From Homoserinimonas sedimenticola (GTDB lineage Bacteria; Actinomycetota; Actinomycetes; Actinomycetales; Microbacteriaceae): DNA of 64,000 bases. The notes beneath the pieces were generated by a model, which was not told the origin of the DNA, did not search any database, and worked only from the letters and a program-made list of their open reading frames with translations. This document shows, one piece after another, positions 3,976 through 51,297 of the stretch. The stretch is from positions 777,171 through 841,170 of the forward strand of contig NZ_JAPELL010000001.1 of NCBI RefSeq assembly GCF_026094475.1, written 5' to 3'. Each line of letters starts with the position of its first letter. Positions within the stretch are counted from its first letter, which is position 1. Made by a program: the position numbers and the translations under genes.

Positions 3976-4851
3976 TCAGCCGACGAGGTTCTGCACGAAT
4001 ACGTGCGGCGTGAAGCCCGTGAGGTCGCCGATCTTCTCGCCCTGGCCGATGAGCTTGATGGGGATGCCCGTGCGCTCCTGCACCGCGAGCACGAAGCCGC
4101 CCTTGGCGGAGCCGTCGAGCTTCGTGATGACGAGCCCCGTCACGCCCGCGTGCTGGATGAAGGCCTCCGCCTGTGCGACGCCGTTCTGACCGGTCGTCGC
4201 GTCGAGCACGAGCAGCACCTCGGCGATCTCCGTCTGCTTCTCGATGACGCGCCGGATCTTGGCCAGCTCATCCATGAGCCCGCTCTTCGTCTGCAGACGA
4301 CCAGCTGTGTCGATGATCGCGATCTCGATGCCCTCCCGCATGGCCTTCTCGACCGTCTGGAAGGCGACGGATGCCGGGTCCTGCCCCTGCTGCTGCGGCC
4401 GCACGATCTGGGCGCCGCCGCGCTCCGCCCACGTGGCGAGCTGCTCGACCGCAGCCGCGCGGAAGGTGTCCGCCGCACCCACGACGACGCTGCGCCCGTA
4501 GTTGCCGAGGAACTTCGCGAACTTGCCGATCGTCGTCGTCTTGCCGACGCCGTTGACGCCCACGACCAGCACGACCGCGGGGCGCGCCGTGAGGGTGAGC
4601 GTGGGGTCGAGCTTGGCGAAGCGTTCCTCGAGGTTCTCCCGCAGCATCCGCTTGAGGTCCGTCGGGTCTGTCGTGTTGTAGCGCCGCACCTGCTCGCGCA
4701 GCTGCTCGATGACGGCATCCGTGATGTCGGGGCCGAAGTCGGCCGTGATGAGCGCCGTCTCGAGGTCGTCCCAGGTGTCCTCATCGATCGTCGGCTTCGC
4801 GAACATGCCGCGGAGGGCGCCGGAGAGAGACCAGGGGGTGCGTTCAGCCAT
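3976..4851 (-). CDS. ftsY: SRP receptor GTPase FtsY
   Basis: 291 aa, the membrane-associated partner of Ffh. N domain about 1-80, then P-loop GVNGVGKTTT, DTAGRLQTKSGL, TKLDGSAKGG and the closing GEKIGDLTGF. The long acidic A domain of E. coli FtsY is absent, as is usual in many actinobacteria. The open frame extends about 104 codons upstream, but MAERTPW at 4851 is chosen because TACGCT lies exactly six bases before the ATG and the extension has no family likeness. Its strand and identity match the conserved smc-ftsY-ffh series, here separated by inserted genes. Confidence 0.96.
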   Translation of the reverse strand: MAERTPWSLSGALRGMFAKPTIDEDTWDDLETALITADFGPDITDAVIEQLREQVRRYNTTDPTDLKRMLRENLEERFAKLDPTLTLTARPAVVLVVGVNGVGKTTTIGKFAKFLGNYGRSVVVGAADTFRAAAVEQLATWAERGGAQIVRPQQQGQDPASVAFQTVEKAMREGIEIAIIDTAGRLQTKSGLMDELAKIRRVIEKQTEIAEVLLVLDATTGQNGVAQAEAFIQHAGVTGLVITKLDGSAKGGFVLAVQERTGIPIKLIGQGEKIGDLTGFTPHVFVQNLVG

Positions 4852-4857
4852 GCCTCC

Positions 4858-4863
4858 AGCGTA
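4858..4863 (-). promoter_or_regulatory. Leaderless-type -10 (TACGCT) of ftsY
   Basis: TACGCT on the minus strand, then GGAGGC and the ATG at 4851, so transcription would begin at the A of the start codon. The GGAGG is too close to the ATG to serve as an ordinary Shine-Dalgarno. Confidence 0.55.
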
Positions 4864-4951
4864 GGCCAGCACCCGGCAAGCCTCAGCGACCACGCAGGGA
4901 GCCGTGGTTACGTCACCAGCGACAGCAGCCACATCAAGGAAGGGACGACCC

Positions 4952-5941
4952 GTGACCGTGATCGGCTGGCACGCCTCGCACGAGCAGCTCCACCCGAAGG
5001 ACCTCCTCACCTCCCTGCAGCACGCGGAACAGGCGGGGTTCACCGCCGCGATGTGCAGCGACCACTTCGCTCCGTGGAGCGAGCGGCAGGGGCATTCGGG
5101 GTTCGCGTGGTCATGGCTCGGCGCCGCACTGCAGGCGACCGAGCTGCCCGTCGGGGTCGTCAACGCCCCAGGGCAGCGCTACCACCCCGCGATCATCGCG
5201 CAGGCGGCGGCGACGCTCGAGGCGATGTTCCCCGGGCGCTTCTGGGCCGCACTCGGCAGCGGTGAGGCCATGAACGAGCACATCACGGGCGACGCGTGGC
5301 CGCGCAAGGAGCACCGCAACGAGCGGCTGCTCGAGAGCGTCACGGTCATGCGCTCCCTGCTCGCGGGGCACGAGGTCAGTCACGAGGGCCACGTGACGGT
5401 CGATCGCGCGCGGCTGTGGACGAGACCGGATGCCCCGCCACCCCTCCTCGCCGCTGCGGTCTCTGCAGAGACGGCTGCGTGGGCGGCAGAGTGGGCCGAC
5501 GGCCTCGCGACCGTCAACCAGTCACCTGATGCGCTGCGGAACGTCGTCGACGCCTACCGCTCCGCCGGCGGGCGCGGCGCCCTCGTGTTGCAGGTGCATG
5601 TGAGCTACGCGGCGAGCGACGAGGAGGCCCTCGCGATCGCCCACGACCAGTGGCGCACCAACGTCTTCTCCCCTCCGCTGTGCTGGGATCTCGACAGCGC
5701 CGAGTCCTTCGACATCGCGGCCTCGCACGTCGAGCCGGAGGACCTGCGCGGCTCCGTGATCGTGTCGTCCGCGACATCCGAGCATGCCGACAGGCTCGCC
5801 GAACTCATCGACATCGGCTTCGACGAGGTCTACCTGCACCATGTCGGCCGAGAGCAGCGCGAGTTCATCGACGCCTTCGGCGAGCGCGTGCTGCCGCAGC
5901 TCTCCGTCACCTCGAAGCTGTCGGGGGGTGCCGCCGCGTGA
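4952..5941 (+). CDS. LLM-class flavin oxidoreductase, TIGR03885-like
   Basis: 329 aa luciferase-like TIM barrel beginning MTVIGWHASHEQ, the characteristic N-terminus of the TIGR03885 group (predicted FMN- rather than F420-dependent). Other matching stretches are SDHFAPWSERQGHSGFAW, the region AAALGSGEAMNEHI and, near the C-terminus, FDEVYLHHVGREQ. The frame is open to 4904, but the GTG at 4952 is preferred: AAGGAAGGGA ends about seven bases before it and the family begins there. Its stop overlaps the GH13 start as GTGA. The substrate is unknown; close coupling to an alpha-glucan enzyme is the main clue. Confidence 0.85.
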   Translation: MTVIGWHASHEQLHPKDLLTSLQHAEQAGFTAAMCSDHFAPWSERQGHSGFAWSWLGAALQATELPVGVVNAPGQRYHPAIIAQAAATLEAMFPGRFWAALGSGEAMNEHITGDAWPRKEHRNERLLESVTVMRSLLAGHEVSHEGHVTVDRARLWTRPDAPPPLLAAAVSAETAAWAAEWADGLATVNQSPDALRNVVDAYRSAGGRGALVLQVHVSYAASDEEALAIAHDQWRTNVFSPPLCWDLDSAESFDIAASHVEPEDLRGSVIVSSATSEHADRLAELIDIGFDEVYLHHVGREQREFIDAFGERVLPQLSVTSKLSGGAAA

Positions 5942-44714: not shown

Positions 44715-44954
44715 CACCGAGGCCTCCCTGGGCGGTGGGCTGACGAGCCGACCCGCGGGCACGGAGAACTCGCCCTCAGATCGTTGGGGACGCGAGTATG
44801 CGATCCAGCGGGCCACTGATCTGGTTGTGCCTCTCGTGCGGGCTGCGATCGGTCGTTCCACGGCAACCCAGCTCGTCGAGAATCACCTCGAGGAGTCGCT
44901 CATTCGAAGGACGGCAGCGCTATTCGGCCTGACCAGATCGAGAGGCGTATCCCG
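44715..44954. other. Gene-poor stretch between the hydrolase operon and the RHS array
   Basis: No convincing coding frame on either strand. The base composition becomes AT-richer towards 44950, marking the edge of the RHS-associated low-GC region. Confidence 0.5.
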
Positions 44955-45146
44955 TCAACTAAGCGACCCCAGAAGGACGACTGCTGTGATGACTGTGAGT
45001 GCCACCAGGGCGCCGGCGACGCCGATCCAGAGTGGGCGCAGCTGCGCTCGTCGCCCCTTGAACGCGTAGGTACCAGCCAAGAGCGCAAACAGAACCAGGG
45101 TCGCCGCGACGCCGATTAGGAGGAAACAACCACGATCGAGTTCCAT
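44955..45146 (-). CDS. Small two-helix membrane protein (candidate orphan immunity)
   Basis: 63 aa, MELDRGCFLLIGVAATLVLF...; two hydrophobic helices (about 8-24 and 38-60) joined by a basic loop KGRRAQLR. It lies just downstream of the degenerate third RHS tip, the same relative position as the other small membrane genes here. No good Shine-Dalgarno. Homologues are not known to me; immunity is inference from position and shape. Confidence 0.4.
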   Translation of the reverse strand: MELDRGCFLLIGVAATLVLFALLAGTYAFKGRRAQLRPLWIGVAGALVALTVITAVVLLGSLS

Positions 45147-45258
45147 GATCAACAGTTCGGTTAGTAACGGTAGCGCTCGGTCAGAATCCACGATCGTCGC
45201 CCCGCTAGTGGGATGGATGCCGCTGGGGACTGCTGCACAAGTAGGTGACATCTGATCT

Positions 45259-45297
45259 GGGTTGCACGCGGTATACGAGTACGGGTTGGTCTCCTGC
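45259..45297 (-). repeat. Degenerate third RHS tip remnant
   Basis: On the minus strand this codes QETNPYSYTACNP, matching QEANPYSYAACNP and QEANPYAYAGCNP of the two other RHS tips, with a stop codon immediately before it. Only this 39-base core is recognisable. Confidence 0.7.
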
Positions 45298-45414
45298 TAG
45301 TACCCTTAGGATCCGATGCATTTACCAGAATGCAGCTTCTGTAGTGCATTGCTGTCAGCCTGGATTTGGCGCGACTTTTCTCCCGGCACTCGTGCTCGGC
45401 TCGCAGTCGGGCAC

Positions 45415-45627
45415 TCAGTCGTCTTCACGATGTCGGTGGTAATAGATGACGAACGCCAGACTGCATAAGAAGCCAACCACGCAGGCGCTCAATCCGAACC
45501 ATGCACCCTCAGAGGAATCAGTCGTCGCTATCTGCCAGACAGATAGGATTGCTCCAACTGCGAATGCAATCGTGCACAGCCACTCGATTACGAGCCGACC
45601 GTCGTTGCTTGATTGGTTCTCATCCAT
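45415..45627 (-). CDS. Small two-helix membrane protein (candidate immunity to displaced RHS tip)
   Basis: 70 aa, MDENQSSNDGRLVIEWLCTI...; hydrophobic segments at about 13-34 and 43-62, ending in YYHRHREDD. It begins 38 bp after the stop of the displaced RHS tip. No clear ribosome site. It differs in sequence from the other small membrane proteins. Immunity role inferred from context only. Confidence 0.5.
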   Translation of the reverse strand: MDENQSSNDGRLVIEWLCTIAFAVGAILSVWQIATTDSSEGAWFGLSACVVGFLCSLAFVIYYHRHREDD

Positions 45628-45665
45628 TCTTGCCCGCCCGTGTTAGTTGAACCCGCCCCGCGACT

Positions 45666-46309
45666 TCAGGACCTGTTTATGAGTGTTCCGACGTTATACA
45701 CGAGACTTGCCGCCGAATAGGCGAATCGAACGGCACCGGGAGCACCGAGCACTAGTGTCGGGGCGCCTGCCACGAGGGCAACGGTGGAGTATCCCAAACT
45801 GAGCACCGCCACCGACGTTCTGGTGATGGCCTGCCAGCATTCGAGCGAGGCAGTTCCGGTCGGGTCAATTGAGTTGACTGGGTTACACGCCGCATAGGAG
45901 TACGGGTTGGCTTCCTGCCCCGACGGATCGAACTGGGTGAACCGTCCCGTGCTGGCGTCGTAGTAGCGGGCTCCGAGTTTGTAGAGCCCGGAGGCTTCGT
46001 CCCAGTAGCCGCTGATGTAGCGCAGGCTGTTCTTGCCGATGTCGAGGTTGCTGCTGATGGCACGTTGTTCTCCGTAGGGGCTATAGGAGTAGCCGCCGTA
46101 GTAGGTGCCGGTCTTGCTAAACATCCCCACCACCGAGTTGAGGTGGTCGGTGACGTAGTAGTACCGGGACCCACCACCGAGCCTGGCGCCGACCGCGTCC
46201 CCGTCGGGGGTGCGGGTGAAGCCGCGCTGGGAGCCGACCGCGCCGGAGAGTTCCTCCCCCATCAACCCCAGACCGCTAGTGAGGTAGCTGGTCGTGGTGG
46301 AGGAGGCGA
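45666..46309 (-). pseudogene. Displaced RHS C-terminal tip with alternative tail
   Basis: About 215 codons that duplicate the end of the intact RHS gene (ASSTTTSYLTSGLGLMGEE through GLYKLGARYYDASTGRFTQFDPSG). After SIDPTG the sequence diverges to a different hydrophobic tail of 62 residues (TASLECWQAITRTSV... ending GTLINRS). Homology to the intact gene starts abruptly at 46309. The ORF is open to 46412, but its upstream part is unrelated and no secretion signal is present, so this is a silent cassette that could swap its tail into the full gene by recombination. Confidence 0.85.
45875..46309 (-). repeat. Duplicated RHS core, displaced copy
   Basis: This 435 bp aligns with 46969-47403 at a constant offset of 1,094 bp, with only scattered differences by eye. 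It is a direct repeat, and homologous recombination between copies would delete the intervening DNA and exchange the tail. Confidence 0.85.
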
Positions 46310-46353
46310 GCCACTGGACAGCCGTTCCGTTTCCGCAGGATCCGCGCTGAAAC

Positions 46354-46557
46354 TCACTCGCCGCGACGTTCTCTCTGGCGTGCAATCGCTCGGCCCACGG
46401 TCGCGATGACAAGCAATCCTGTGCCTACAACTACTCCCCTCAGGAGCAGATGCGGTTCTGGTATCGCTAACGACCAAACCAGCACGCCAAGAAAGACGGC
46501 CGCAACCGCAGTAGCCGCAATCCACATCCGGCGATTCTGATTGCTGGCCCTATTCAC
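46354..46557 (-). CDS. Small two-helix membrane protein overlapping the first immunity candidate
   Basis: 67 aa starting MNRASNQNRRMWIAATAVAAV (GTG at 46557, overlapping the preceding stop as GTGA). Helices at about 11-31 and 39-57, then RAIARQRERRGE. The overlap indicates translational coupling to the RHS gene and the first small protein. It may be a second immunity or accessory subunit. No family recognised. Confidence 0.6.
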   Translation of the reverse strand: MNRASNQNRRMWIAATAVAAVFLGVLVWSLAIPEPHLLLRGVVVGTGLLVIATVGRAIARQRERRGE

Positions 46558-46748
46558 AGCGTTCTCATAACCGTTAGGGAAAAGCCGACGAATACGACAG
46601 TAGTTGCGATTAGTAGCAAGAAGCGGACAGCCCGCTTTCTTTCGATGGGCGTGTGCATCTCCCGTGGGTGGACCAAGAACCATCTTGCGCTCGCCGCGAG
46701 AATGAAGATATACAGTACGCCAGAGACTATCCAAGCTGCTATGAGCAT
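46554..46748 (-). CDS. Small two-helix membrane protein, candidate RHS immunity
   Basis: 64 aa, MLIAAWIVSGVLYIFILAAS...; helices at about 2-22 and 43-61. Its ATG shares one base with the RHS stop (TGATG), so it is cotranslated with the toxin-like gene. Position immediately after the variable RHS tail is where immunity genes of polymorphic toxins lie. A membrane immunity protein fits a tail that is itself membrane-active. Function is inferred. Confidence 0.6.
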   Translation of the reverse strand: MLIAAWIVSGVLYIFILAASARWFLVHPREMHTPIERKRAVRFLLLIATTVVFVGFSLTVMRTL

Positions 46749-49700
46749 CAGAAGGGTCCTTGGTAGTCCTGCATGAGGAGCGCCGCGCTTGTCGTGCCGA
46801 ACACCCCGCATCCCCACACGCCGAGGGCACCGATGCCTCCCGTGAGCCCCATGACCAAGACGGCGCAGGTTGCCGTTATCGCACCACCGATTAGACCCCC
46901 GATGGCATGACCCAGGAGCGTGTTGGCAGAACTCTGCCAGGTGGCCAGGCCAGTCGGGTCCGCAGCTACCACCGGGTTGCACCCGGCATACGCATACGGG
47001 TTGGCTTCCTGCCCGGACGGGTCGAACTGGGTGAACCGTCCTGTGCTGGCGTCGTAGTACCGGGCTCCCAGCTTGTAGAGGCCGGATGCTTCATCGAAGT
47101 ATCCGCTGATGTAGCGCAGGTTGTTCTTGCCGATGTCGACGTTGCTGCTGATGGCGCGTTGTTCACCATAGGGGCTGTAGGAGTAGCCGCCGTAGTAGGT
47201 GCCGGTCTTGCTGAACATCCCCACCACCGAGCCCTGGTGGTCGGTGACGTAGTAGTAGCGGGACCCACCGCCGAGCCTGGCGCCGACGGCGTCGCCTTCG
47301 GGGGTGCGGGTGAAGCCGCGCTGGGAGCCGACCGCGCCGGAGAGTTCCTCCCCCATCAACCCCAGACCGCTAGTGAGGTAGCTGGTCGTGGTGGAGGAGG
47401 CGACCCTCCCCAGCTGGGTCGTGTTGCCCTTCCCGAAGCTGTCATAGGTTCCCGAGCCGATGCCGGTGACCGCACCGCGACTGTTGTAGGTCGCGGTCTG
47501 CCCGGTGATGCCGTTGACCGTCTGATTCCCTGCCGCGTCATACGCCCAACTGGTCGTATCGGCGGTGGCGGCGGTGAGCCTGCCAGCCGCATCGTACGTG
47601 TAGTCGATCGTGCCGGCTGCGGCACCGGTGGCGCCGGTCCTCACCTGCTGGGTGCGGTTGCCGGCGTTGTCATAGGCGTAAGCCCACCACGCGCTGGTGG
47701 TGGCCCCGACTTTCTCGGTTGCGGTGGCGAGTCGGTTCAGGGAGTCATACCCGTAGGTGGTGATCGCCCCGGCGGTGATGCCCTCCTCGGCATGGCTGGT
47801 GCGGGTTTGGATGGCGGTGCGGTCAGCGGCGGGGCCGGAACCGCCGGGGGCGGTGTAGGAGTAGCCGATGTCGACTTTCACTGCGCCGGTGGTGTCCTTG
47901 GCCCGGATGCGGAGGATGCGTCCGGCGGCGTCGTAGCTGGTGTCGATGCCGGCGTTGCCGGGGAAGGTGCGGCGGGTCTCGTTGCCGTTGGCGTCGTAGC
48001 CGAACTTGATACATCCCGAGTTCGCCGGGGACCCCGCCGCCGAGGTGCAGGCACCGCCGGGTTCGATCACCCGCACGAGTTGGTTGGCGTCGTCGTAGGC
48101 GTAGGTGACCTGCCCGTAGATGGCGTCGTAGTAGCCGGTCATGTTCCCGGCCGCGTCATAGTCGTAGAACATGTTGACCGTGGAGGAACGGATGATCTGC
48201 TGCACCGTCATGCGTCCCAGGACGTCGTAGGCGTACTGCTGGAACGGGCCCGTGCTGTCGGTGTCCTTCGACTTCAACCCGTTGAAGTAGTACGAGGTCG
48301 TCAACGTCTGCCCGCCGTCGAAGGTGGTGGAAACGATCTCGTCGCGCACGTTATACCCGTAGGTGGTGGTGTCCCCGTTGCCGTCGGTGACCGTCAGCAC
48401 CCGGCCGAGGGAGTCATGGGTGTAGGTGGTGGGCCCTTGCGGGGCCGGTGGGGTGACCGTGGCGAGGTTGCCGTCCGCATCGTAGGCGTAGCTGGTGGTG
48501 TGCCCGTTGCCGTTGGTCGAGGTGCACACCTGCCCGGCGAAACCGCCACAGACTGCACCGTTGGTTTCGTAGGTGTACTGCTCGGGCACCGCCCCGGTGC
48601 CCCCGGCGGTGGTGTCGGTGACCTTCGTCAGATTCCCCGCCGCGTCGTACTCGAACGCCTTCCCGTTGCCGGCCGCATCCGTCGTGCACTTCGGCTGGAA
48701 CGCGGTCCCGCCGGTTCCGGCGCACCCCACCCCGGTGGCATACGCGGCGCTGGCCGCCGCCCCTGTCGGCAGCGACACCCCGACCGCATTGTTCAACGCA
48801 TCGTAGGAGTAGGTGGTCGTGTTACCCGGCGTGCTGCCGGAGGCGAGCGCATCCGTTGTGGTCGCCACATCACTGTTCGGCGTCCACGTCTGTGACCGGG
48901 TCCGGTTCAGCGGATCAGTGACGGACGTCACCCGGCCGGAGCTGTCGATCGCGAAGGTCGACACCTTCCCCCGCGGATCCGTCAGCGCCGTCTGCCCGGA
49001 CGCGTAGGCGTAACTGGTGGTGCTCAGCGACGTCGAGGACGACGCCGCCATCCGCTCCACCGCCACCACCCGGTGCTGGGCGTCATACACAAACTCCGCC
49101 TTCGTATCCGCGGCCGCCGACGTGCCCCGAGTGCGGATCTCCGTCAGCCGACCCGCCGCATCATACGAATACTCCTCCCACAACCCACCAGGCGAATCCA
49201 CCCGGGTCAACTGACCGGAAGAATTGTGGGAGTAGGTGACGGTGCGACCGGCAGAGTCAGTGATCGAGGAGATCACATCCGCCCCACCCGCGGTGCCCCA
49301 GGTAATCGTGTAGCTACGACCGGAAGCCTCCGTCACCGACGCCACCTTCGCCCCGCTCGTATACGAATAGGTTGCCCCGACCCCGTTGCGGTTCTCATTC
49401 TTGATGATCCACCCGGAACTGTTGAACTCGACCCGCTCCCCGGTCTGGTTGTAGGTCAGCACCTTCGAGTACGGCTCATCCGTCAAGGTCGCGTTGAACC
49501 CTGCCGGCGTCACCCACGCCGACCCACTCCTAGTGAACTGCGCCGTGAACCCGTTAGGGCCGGTGAAGGTCGCCGTCGTCGAGGTGACCGCAAGCCCCAC
49601 ATCCTTCGCCGACAACGGCGACGACCACCCCGCGCCGAAGGACCCGACCGAGGAGGACAACCCGTTGTAGAAACGGTCATTGCGCACCGACAAACCCGGA

Positions 49701-50116
49701 CCGTGCAGCATCCCCTCATTCGCCGTCAACAACAGGTTGCCGTTCGCCAGATTCACCCGAGCAATCGTGCTCACCGAGATCTCAGTCTCATCGAATGCGA
49801 AATACGGCAGCGCCCCCAACCCGGGAGCGCCCACCACGGTGCCCACCGGAGCCCGACGCAGCTGCGACCTCTCACCCAAAACCCGATCCTCCGCAGGCGC
49901 CTCCCACGCCTCCTCCGGAGCCGCAGGCTCCGGAATCACCGCATCACCAGCAGCAGCCTCCGGCACCCACCCCTCGCTATAGGGCGTATCCGGCACCTCA
50001 ATCAGAGACTGATCGTCAGGATCCTTCGACGGCATCGCCGACACCCCCGTCGAGGTGACAAGCACAGCGCTAATGGAAATAATCGCGAGCAGACCAAGAT
50101 TTCGAGCAGAACGCAT
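46748..50116 (-). CDS. Secreted RHS/YD-repeat protein with variable hydrophobic C-terminal tail
   Basis: 1122 aa. Sec signal peptide at 1-27 (LLAIISISAVLVTSTGVSA). Disordered acidic/proline region to about 80; then a long series of YD repeats (YSYDAAGRLTEI, YAYDADGNLATV, YTYDAAGRLTAA and more) forming the RHS cocoon. The RHS core ends with GLYKLGARYYDASTGRFTQFDPSG and DPTG near 1056. After it comes a 66-residue Gly-rich hydrophobic tail that differs from the displaced copy. Two overlapping small membrane genes follow. The Shine-Dalgarno is weak; an inverted repeat TTGAG/CTCAA lies at 50205-50220 upstream. It is likely a wall-associated or exported polymorphic toxin. Confidence 0.92.
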   Translation of the reverse strand: MRSARNLGLLAIISISAVLVTSTGVSAMPSKDPDDQSLIEVPDTPYSEGWVPEAAAGDAVIPEPAAPEEAWEAPAEDRVLGERSQLRRAPVGTVVGAPGLGALPYFAFDETEISVSTIARVNLANGNLLLTANEGMLHGPGLSVRNDRFYNGLSSSVGSFGAGWSSPLSAKDVGLAVTSTTATFTGPNGFTAQFTRSGSAWVTPAGFNATLTDEPYSKVLTYNQTGERVEFNSSGWIIKNENRNGVGATYSYTSGAKVASVTEASGRSYTITWGTAGGADVISSITDSAGRTVTYSHNSSGQLTRVDSPGGLWEEYSYDAAGRLTEIRTRGTSAAADTKAEFVYDAQHRVVAVERMAASSSTSLSTTSYAYASGQTALTDPRGKVSTFAIDSSGRVTSVTDPLNRTRSQTWTPNSDVATTTDALASGSTPGNTTTYSYDALNNAVGVSLPTGAAASAAYATGVGCAGTGGTAFQPKCTTDAAGNGKAFEYDAAGNLTKVTDTTAGGTGAVPEQYTYETNGAVCGGFAGQVCTSTNGNGHTTSYAYDADGNLATVTPPAPQGPTTYTHDSLGRVLTVTDGNGDTTTYGYNVRDEIVSTTFDGGQTLTTSYYFNGLKSKDTDSTGPFQQYAYDVLGRMTVQQIIRSSTVNMFYDYDAAGNMTGYYDAIYGQVTYAYDDANQLVRVIEPGGACTSAAGSPANSGCIKFGYDANGNETRRTFPGNAGIDTSYDAAGRILRIRAKDTTGAVKVDIGYSYTAPGGSGPAADRTAIQTRTSHAEEGITAGAITTYGYDSLNRLATATEKVGATTSAWWAYAYDNAGNRTQQVRTGATGAAAGTIDYTYDAAGRLTAATADTTSWAYDAAGNQTVNGITGQTATYNSRGAVTGIGSGTYDSFGKGNTTQLGRVASSTTTSYLTSGLGLMGEELSGAVGSQRGFTRTPEGDAVGARLGGGSRYYYVTDHQGSVVGMFSKTGTYYGGYSYSPYGEQRAISSNVDIGKNNLRYISGYFDEASGLYKLGARYYDASTGRFTQFDPSGQEANPYAYAGCNPVVAADPTGLATWQSSANTLLGHAIGGLIGGAITATCAVLVMGLTGGIGALGVWGCGVFGTTSAALLMQDYQGPF
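46969..47403 (-). repeat. Duplicated RHS core, resident copy
   Basis: Partner of the repeat at 45875-46309, within the intact RHS gene; identical at most positions and in the same orientation. Confidence 0.85.
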
Positions 50117-50204
50117 ACCGAAAGACCAACCTCAATGTCGGGGAAACGAGGGGTGAAGCGACTACTCCCCCGACGCTACGACGACGAACCCTCAAAGTTC
50201 AGTC

Positions 50205-50220
50205 TTGAGTTCTCCCTCAA
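50205..50220 (-). promoter_or_regulatory. Inverted repeat upstream of the RHS gene
   Basis: TTGAG (50205-50209) and CTCAA (50216-50220) with a six-base spacer, about 90 bp before the RHS ATG. TAGCGT on the minus strand near 50173-50178 is a possible -10. Could bind a regulator; weak evidence. Confidence 0.3.
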
Positions 50221-50259
50221 AACCAGGCTACGGTTATTAGCGCCGATGCCACCGTGCCC

Positions 50260-51297
50260 TCACTCCCCCTGGGGCAGCTCCGAGTCGGTGGTGAGGTGCG
50301 GCGCGAGGTCGCGGGGGCTCATGGTGCCGGCGAGCACCTCGGCGACCTGCGAGACGATCGGCATGACGACACCCTTCGCCTGCGCGAGCTCCAGGATCGG
50401 GGCGACCGAGGCGAGGCCCTCCGCCGTCTGGTTCATCTGCTTGACGACGTCGGCGAAGGAGAGCCCCTGCCCGAGCAGGCGGCCCGCCGTGTTATTGCGG
50501 GAGAGCGACGACTCGCAGGTCGCGATGAGGTCACCGAGGCCCGCGAGGCCGGACAGGGTCGAGGCTTTGGCGCCGTAGGCGACCGCGAAGTCGGTCATCT
50601 CGACAAGGCCGCGCGTGATGATCGACGCCTTCGTGTTCTCGCCGTAGCCGACACCGTCGACGATGCCGATCGCGACCGCGATGAGGTTCTTGAGCACGCC
50701 GCCGAACTCGGTGCCCGTGACATCCGTGTTGACAAAGGTCCTGAAGTAGGGGTTTGTCGCGAGCATCGCGACGCGCGTCGCCGTGTCGAGACTGGCGGAG
50801 GCGACAACGGCCGCGGTCGGCTGCTCCTTCGCGATCTCGAGCGCGAGGTTGGGTCCGGATGCCACAGCGATGCGATTCGCGTCGAGCCCGAGCTCCTCAG
50901 TGATGACCTCGCTCATGCGGGCCCTCGTGCCCTTCTCGACGCCCTTCATCAGGCTCACGACGAGGGCGTCACGGGGAATCATCGTGCCGAACTCGCGCAG
51001 GTTGCTGCGCAGCGTCTGGCTCGGCACGGAGAGGAACACGACCTCGGCCCCGTCGAGCGTCTCCTCGATCACGTGGCTCGACCAGAGGGTGCGCGGCAGG
51101 TTGATGCCCGGCAGGTAGTCGCTGTTGCGCCTGCTCTCCGCGATCTCGCGGGCGAGCTCGGCGCGGCGCGCCCACAGCGCGACATCCGCTCCCCCATCGG
51201 CGAGGATCTTGGCGAACGTCGTGCCCCAGCTGCCGGCGCCGAGCACGGCGACGCGCGTCGCCCCGGGAACAGGGATGCGAATGGGCCTCGTGCTCAT
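50260..51297 (-). CDS. gpsA: Glycerol-3-phosphate dehydrogenase [NAD(P)+] GpsA
   Basis: 345 aa. Rossmann start AVLGAGSWGTTFAKIL, then SLMKGVEKGT, ASGPNLALEIAKEQPTA and KNLIAVAIGIVDGVGYGENTKA with the catalytic lysine. Supplies glycerol-3-phosphate for phospholipids, the substrate line of the neighbouring PlsC. Its ATG overlaps the plsC stop by one base (TGATG). Last gene of the leuC-leuD-murA-plsC-gpsA operon. Confidence 0.97.
   Translation of the reverse strand: MSTRPIRIPVPGATRVAVLGAGSWGTTFAKILADGGADVALWARRAELAREIAESRRNSDYLPGINLPRTLWSSHVIEETLDGAEVVFLSVPSQTLRSNLREFGTMIPRDALVVSLMKGVEKGTRARMSEVITEELGLDANRIAVASGPNLALEIAKEQPTAAVVASASLDTATRVAMLATNPYFRTFVNTDVTGTEFGGVLKNLIAVAIGIVDGVGYGENTKASIITRGLVEMTDFAVAYGAKASTLSGLAGLGDLIATCESSLSRNNTAGRLLGQGLSFADVVKQMNQTAEGLASVAPILELAQAKGVVMPIVSQVAEVLAGTMSPRDLAPHLTTDSELPQGE

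Follow-up and report, generated by a model that had tools for sequence, protein, structure and literature searches.

A candidate Sec-exported RHS toxin locus with short hydrophobic tails and displaced core cassettes in Homoserinimonas sedimenticola

We examined a 64,000-nucleotide stretch of the Homoserinimonas sedimenticola genome (family Microbacteriaceae; genome size = 2.84 Mb; assembly GCF_026094475.1, contig NZ_JAPELL010000001.1, positions 777,171 to 841,170), hereafter referred to as the window, and focused on an RHS gene together with the displaced core copies and small open reading frames (ORFs) on its 3' side. We consider it likely that this locus encodes a polymorphic RHS toxin exported by Sec, in which a Gly-rich, membrane-acting helical hairpin would be the warhead, small proteins with two predicted transmembrane segments (TMs) would confer immunity, and displaced cores would serve as recombination cassettes; in most relatives, the hairpin is probably stapled by a disulfide. 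The locus and its relatives have a modular anatomy, with diverse tails on a conserved core, co-occurring partner genes, even cysteine counts and orphan cassettes. In kind, the locus is ordinary: an RHS toxin with orphan cassettes.

The RHS gene, its displaced core and the small ORFs

The main RHS gene (46748..50116; minus strand, as are all locus features given below in window coordinates) is an intact ORF of 1122 aa, comprising a signal peptide, a YD-repeat shell, an RHS core and a 66-aa tail. An earlier note on this DNA had described it as an intact secreted RHS gene, and the hydrophobic N-terminal run indeed reads as a signal peptide. This predicted Sec signal peptide (50036..50116; approximately residues 1-27, hydrophobic run 7-25) was called from hydropathy and, by eye, from a basic N-terminus and small residues ahead of MPSKD, rather than by a dedicated program. 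The protein matches PF05593 (E 1e-50, 169 bits), the YD repeats of TIGR01643 and the core family TIGR03696 (75 bits, cut-off 32.5), and apart from RHS_repeat and DUF6531, a Pfam scan listed just two families, both sub-threshold. In an AlphaFold2 model based on a 22-sequence alignment, shell residues ~100-1000 mostly reached a per-residue confidence (pLDDT) of 80-96, while the tail, with a pLDDT of ~23, is effectively without a model within the shell. Both Foldseek and HMMER matched solved Rhs shells, including that of the pore-forming Tse5 (8cp6_B, Foldseek E 1e-42); Foldseek E values for Rhs shells went down to 4e-47, with structural TM-scores of only ~0.25-0.5. The core ends in DPSG-X17-DPTG (46949..47023); from its sequence, this is predicted to be where aspartyl autoproteolysis takes place and where cassettes join. 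Both Asp residues of the protease motif (D1032 and D1053) and G1056 are invariant in the 22-sequence alignment; in alignment A2, the protein starts of relatives were taken as the first start codon of the ORF. The spacing is one residue below the Rhs motif DPXG-X18-DPXG, and a pattern search of the short-tail cores described below found a spacing of 17 in 35/71 and of 15 in 2/71, the remaining 34/71 being unmatched by the pattern. YD repeats with a core, a barrel shell fold, a DPxG motif and a hypervariable tail on a conserved core are features that the protein shares with the Rhs polymorphic toxins.

We next compared the main core end with the displaced core (45855..46312). The 435-bp copy reported in the earlier note was recovered in full, as the alignment of 45875-46309 with 46969-47403 spans 435 nt at 91.5% identity with zero gaps, and BLAST lengthened the match to 45877-46312 versus 46971-47406 (91.7% over 436 nt, E 2e-179, far above chance). 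The proposed abrupt homology edge near 46309 was likewise evident, with 24-30 identities per 30-nt block inside the repeat versus 4-11 from 46320 on. DPTG is present in both the main and displaced copies, in agreement with the conserved junction that had been claimed; the 3' homology edge of the displaced copy lies at DPTG (45856) against a second genomic locus, and 21 nt earlier against the main gene. Synonymous and nonsynonymous differences between the two cores amount to 0.267 and 0.050 per site, respectively, and this roughly five-fold depletion of nonsynonymous differences therefore suggests that the orphan core was selected at the protein level until recently, or was refreshed from a selected copy.

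Downstream of these cores, tail 1 (46751..46948; 66 aa) is Gly/Ala-rich and hydrophobic, with C28 and C47 around a TGG (LTGGIG), and tail 2 (45669..45854; 62 aa) is hydrophobic with one Cys. The two are not clearly related to each other (BLASTP of one against the other: 16 bits, E 0.019), and the earlier description of the tails as membrane-like holds. A third core remnant, QETNPYSYTACNP (45259..45297; 39 bp), also noticed earlier, matches the displaced copy (85% over 41 nt) and the second locus (90% over 39 nt); DPTG is absent and the hydrophobic tail is lost.

The second locus, which the earlier note does not mention, lies on the same contig at 626669-627505, ~196 kb off (4628-5509 of locus L005). 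It has 149 bp in common with the main upstream region and first codons (96% identity), keeps the ATG and five codons, and then jumps in frame to core residue ~823, followed by a third tail and a two-TM ORF of its own, which overlap each other by one base. Judged from this layout, it looks like a copy from which the shell was deleted in frame. Since the upstream region is present and the signal peptide is gone, its tail, if expressed, would be cytosolic. Thus, three paralogous core ends in this genome share 89.7-90.6% DNA identity and bear three different tails.

Four small two-TM ORFs (63-70 aa), likewise absent from the earlier note, were found among the parts of the main locus, and both tails have one on their 3' side. 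The start codon of imm1 (46554..46748; 64 aa) shares one base with the tail-1 stop (TGATG), whereas imm2 (45415..45627; 70 aa) begins 38 nt past the tail-2 stop, so that the displaced core, with its own tail and two-TM ORF 3' of the main gene, has the layout of an orphan module. Because a partner gene is present, the locus parts read as toxin-immunity modules and not as bare tips. The 67-aa immX (46354..46557), which overlaps imm1 (GTGA), is a candidate second or orphan immunity gene; it has matches in 10/269 family genomes, the own copy being strong and the other nine weak (and uninspected). Beside the tail-less third remnant lies imm3 (44955..45146; 63 aa), in a frame open from 45251. Searches of the tails and small ORFs against Pfam and NCBIfam gave no family over cut-off, PADLOC gave a single weak match (E 0.02) and PHROGs gave weak matches only, the best (E 8e-4) for the second-locus partner. 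For tail 1, the PDB held no convincing sequence (best E 0.44), and its three matches across 269 family genomes comprised the own copy and two weak ones, which are transporter ORFs by eye.

Short tails and their partners across genomes

We further searched for related loci with an alignment built from the core end only, so that the survey was blind to tails and neighbours. At E 1e-3, matches were obtained at 34 loci in named contigs and in 73/299 family and 83/347 order genomes, and the nine pattern matches in viral contigs were not confirmed. In total, 184 loci yielded 117 non-redundant core ends with a stop, which were divided into 71 short-tail (40-130 aa) and 36 long-tail (over 150 aa) cases; 10 were dropped (tail <40 aa, 131-150 aa, or too little downstream DNA). 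The long-tail class comes partly from 40 hand-picked places in the match table and otherwise from search-returned loci. We counted as a partner any ORF on the same strand that was 45-130 aa long, had two or more predicted TMs (Kyte-Doolittle mean over 19 residues of 1.5 or higher, in place of a trained predictor) and began between -40 and +100 nt relative to the tail stop. Such a partner accompanied 56/71 short-tail RHS genes, as compared with 1/36 long-tail RHS genes and 3/342 other ORFs of at least 300 aa. Under a stricter rule, with the first start codon taken per frame, the counts were 45/71, 0/36 and 1/351, respectively (Fisher test short versus long, P = 6e-12). When the partner start closest to the tail stop was taken, 9 of 57 offsets were at -4 and 4 at -1.

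The earlier note had proposed that polymorphic tails are exchanged at the DPTG point, with related strains retaining one tail at one position, or tails lacking both effect and diversity, as the outcome that would speak against it. Clustering at a global identity of at least 45% divided the 71 short tails into 61 clusters, the median identity between pairs being 28% (by shorter sequence), and three tails on ~90%-identical cores are found in this genome alone; the anatomy therefore fits the proposal, and neither a retained tail nor a lack of diversity was seen. Single-linkage BLAST clustering without composition correction, which merged 64/71 tails, was discarded as a low-complexity artefact. 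A partner was present in at least one member of 50/61 tail clusters and for 45/51 of the hydrophobic Gly/Ala-rich representatives, and tail similarity tracks partner similarity (Mantel r = 0.41, 0/1000 permutations). Short hydrophobic tails with two-TM partners are thus a consistent and wide class, spanning Microbacteriaceae, Cellulomonas, Kitasatospora and others. In the open-access literature, with subscription papers and preprints outside the scope, we found no name for it.

The short tails resemble each other in composition and layout more than in sequence (median Gly+Ala = 37%). Their cysteine count is even in 58/61 clusters and exactly two in 49 (P = 4e-14 versus a Poisson model), and is under-dispersed (variance/mean = 0.32) relative to eight other residues (0.94-1.95). 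In the 49 two-Cys tails, the pair is 44-72 residues apart in 26, mostly near both tail ends, 19-33 apart in 16 and 6-8 apart in seven. Tail 1 belongs to the middle kind, and both of its cysteines hardly vary when it is aligned with ten other tails chosen for their central-cysteine layout. When these 11 tails were compared with pre-toxin Pfam families, only DUF6861, MtrA and Acetyltransf_4 appeared at E 0.1, with one member each. GxxxG occurs 190 times in the 61 tail representatives versus 138 +/- 10 in shuffled sequences (0/500 reach it). A hydropathy dip midway between wide cysteines was weak (18/28) and was not used. AlphaFold2 of tail 1 alone placed helices at 3-36 and 41-62 with low confidence (pLDDT 59, pTM 0.30), and by this weak model C28 and C47 would lie at similar distances from the turn. 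A disulfide in the tail, as suggested by the cysteine pattern, is plausible for an exported protein.

Several surveyed loci depart from the simple arrangement. At L039 (3407-3679), a two-TM gene lies 5' of an RHS gene and shares 48% identity with the L013 partner ORF, a similarity consistent with an orphan-immunity pattern. At L042 (4747-7487, RHS orientation), five small TM-predicted ORFs follow an RHS gene and a displaced core, resembling a poly-immunity island. The tails of L074, L084 and L176 (111-135 aa) are polar and Gly-rich; they have CxxxC or a like motif close to their start, and their residues alternate in a way that could reflect beta-strands. In two contigs of alphaproteobacterial metagenome-assembled genomes (L082 and L083), RHS genes carry nearly identical 482-residue tails, which open with a hydrophobic, Gly-rich segment and further on look intein/Hint-like by eye. 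The genome of H. sedimenticola itself encodes a further, large RHS protein (L006, 2251-9264; open frame of 2342 aa), the 407-residue tail of which opens with a two-Cys, Gly-rich hydrophobic stretch and then continues, with no adjacent two-TM ORF under the stricter rule.

A proposed mechanism and its alternatives

In the proposed mechanism, the RHS shell protein would be exported by Sec, as its predicted signal peptide suggests, and the shell would enclose the tail and cleave itself at the DPxG aspartyl site, to which the conserved motif and the shell model point. The tail would presumably be set free at the target cell, where this 62-66-residue Gly-rich helical hairpin may act as the warhead by inserting into and permeabilising the cytoplasmic membrane; the two cysteines of most relatives could staple the hairpin outside the cell. 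The adjacent two-TM ORF, which often overlaps the tail gene, would encode a membrane immunity protein, in keeping with how often it accompanies short tails. Downstream displaced cores, together with the other tails and two-TM genes that they bring, would be orphan cassettes. Homologous recombination within the core may put one of these in place of the main tail, and where a tail has decayed, its immunity gene may persist. A broader proposal is possible but doubtful, namely that disulfide-stapled hairpin warheads of ~50-100 residues and similar-sized two-helix antidotes, co-assembling as near-mirror hairpins, form a large unnamed actinobacterial class, which would have originated from the translocation hairpin of longer, enzyme-carrying RHS toxins.

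Several points weigh against this mechanism. Toxicity, immunity and secretion are all predictions from sequence. Recombination at DPTG is deduced from anatomy; none of four congeners matches the RHS protein, and the search brought up no pair of strains in which the exchange is visible. By hydropathy, each of the three tails in this genome has a single TM rather than two (15-33 in tail 1, 24-42 in tail 2), so the two-helix hairpin rests on the weak model and the layout; moreover, the staple cannot apply to tail 2 because it has one Cys, and the 6-8-residue cysteine spacing (7/49) fits a hairpin staple poorly. The Mantel correlation is carried by a few clearly homologous pairs. No two-TM ORF was found for 15/71 short tails, among which L160, L161, L125 and L157 are non-hairpin by eye, while the polar, apparently non-hairpin tails of L074 and L176 also have one, and L084 has one farther away. 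Short tails occur on proteins of 1,112-1,523 aa (complete ORFs; up to ~1,800 in the match table) and long tails mostly on proteins of ~1,700-3,100 aa; because tail length and RHS lineage are thus entangled, it could be lineage rather than tail type that the two-TM gene goes with.

Other explanations of the same features were also weighed. The short tails are unlikely to be membrane anchors that tether the shell to the producer's membrane, with the two-TM ORF as an anchoring or export partner. Hydrophobic tails, often with one or two predicted TMs, and membrane-protein partners would suit such a role, but anchors need not split into 61 clusters on a conserved core or require displaced cassettes, a conserved self-cleavage motif would sever them, and two-TM genes occur without a tail of their own (imm3; L039). 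This persistence without a toxin tail (imm3, possibly immX; L039), as is typical of immunity genes, also makes it rather improbable that the two-TM protein is a second toxin or holin-like subunit acting with the tail in a two-component pore. Tail and partner are both small and hydrophobic, as such a pore would have it, and imm2 has weak holin-family matches (PF23778, E 0.006, below cut-off; phrog_2359, E 0.08); against this, the size, two TMs and position of the partners match CdiI of the ionophores of contact-dependent growth inhibition (CDI) (PMC11630599). In several long tails (L006 of this genome; L132, L151), a further domain is preceded by a hydrophobic stretch of comparable Gly-rich, two-Cys type, as would be expected if the short tails were remnants of long toxins, that is, pre-toxin translocation hairpins left after enzyme loss. 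We give this last explanation little credence, given that short tails recur in 71 non-redundant cases with a two-TM ORF near 56/71, versus 1/36 long tails, and that leftovers would hardly retain dedicated partners or even cysteine counts.

Relation to known systems and the insertion site

Among the known systems closest to the proposed Sec-exported toxin with a hairpin warhead is Tse5, an Rhs pore-forming effector of the Pseudomonas aeruginosa type VI secretion system (T6SS), in which Asp residues of the motif are required to cleave the pore-forming tail (PMC10684867); its immunity protein, Tsi5, is a membrane protein (PMC12744356). Similar to Tse5/Tsi5, the locus combines an Rhs shell around a putatively membrane-acting tail, an aspartyl self-cleavage motif and candidate membrane immunity, with the functions deduced here (PMC10684867). 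It differs from the T6SS-delivered Tse5, with its 149-residue tail (1169-1317), in its predicted signal peptide and 62-66-residue tail (PMC10684867), as well as in its actinobacterial host and very diverse cassette family. Pfam and NCBIfam searches of the main RHS protein found no T6SS N-terminal domain (PAAR/VgrG-linked).

As proposed for the present locus, CDI ionophores pair a polymorphic, membrane-acting tail with a small, hydrophobic immunity protein of two helices, which is highly polymorphic as well (PMC11630599), the CdiI proteins being of 72-100 aa versus 63-70 aa for the two-TM proteins here (PMC11630599). However, these Gram-negative systems use a CdiA carrier, and their tails combine an entry domain with a five-helix bundle as the ionophore (PMC11630599), whereas the carrier here is an RHS protein, with no CdiA, and the 66-residue tail has two helices in a weak model and no five-helix ionophore. 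Because CdiA, the five-helix ionophore and the T6SS domain were not found, membership of the locus in either CDI or T6SS does not follow.

The displaced core with its own tail and candidate immunity gene resembles the orphan rhs-CT/rhsI modules known from Salmonella and further enterobacteria (PMC3967940), in which the displaced downstream core is 522 bp at 95% identity in Salmonella, as compared with 435 bp at 91.5% here (PMC3967940). Recombination and toxin deployment have been demonstrated for the Salmonella module, whereas the present one is known from its anatomy (PMC3967940). Unlike in the enterobacterial case, there is an extra orphan ~196 kb away here, for which the upstream region and the start codon were copied as well. 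The Pfam scan of the main RHS protein showed no LXG domain; TelE is reportedly grouped with EsxX as a glycine-zipper LXG toxin. EsxX resembles the present locus in its Gram-positive host, and its membrane-depolarising glycine-zipper tail and membrane-bound immunity protein have possible counterparts here in the GxxxG-enriched tails and the candidate two-TM immunity proteins (PMC12744356), but EsxX and TelE differ in their LXG domain, type VII secretion and lack of an RHS shell (PMC12744356). Two membrane-spanning helices as toxin or immunity are also known from Tox-WTIP, Imm-CdiI and Imm17 (PMC3482391). Motifs described for these are RxxR and Wx[ST]IP in Tox-WTIP, which is listed under proteobacteria, and WxW in Imm17 (PMC3482391); inspection by eye revealed neither the Tox-WTIP nor the Imm17 motifs in the tails and partners of the locus. 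Finally, BiTLP has an RHS/YD shell, a hydrophobic C-terminal fragment with a predicted TM and downstream immunity genes (PMC13018210), but is far larger and teneurin-like, with its TM region at residues 2165-2185 (PMC13018210).

If the proposed mechanism is correct, Tse5 and the CDI ionophores would have in this locus a counterpart from actinobacteria that is exported by Sec and carries very small RHS warheads. The locus would also offer dozens of candidate toxin-immunity pairs with simple features (two cysteines, GxxxG and a two-TM partner) and a rule for spotting small immunity genes in actinobacterial genomes, and would raise the question of whether a translocation hairpin can turn into a pore.

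The RHS locus is flanked by gpsA (50260-51297) and by a hydrolase/murF/ddl block (gene names assigned by eye). The upstream region with the first codons (50103..50251), which begins right after the gpsA stop, matches the genome at two places, with 96% identity at the second locus; it folded as RNA no better than shuffled sequences (z = -0.4), and promoter and terminator scans gave chance-level results only. In all four congeners, homology ends at 50256-50264, at the gpsA stop, and restarts at 44717-44722, and the site between is filled by 2-3 kb of other genes. Because homology breaks there and all four congeners hold different genes, the gpsA-to-hydrolase/murF interval (window 44722-50256) is a variable insertion point in the genus. 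The contents of the site in these congeners (L050-L053) include, by eye, a decarboxylase-like gene, a dehydrogenase-like gene with an SMP-30-like gene, and an MFS transporter with a MerR-like gene.

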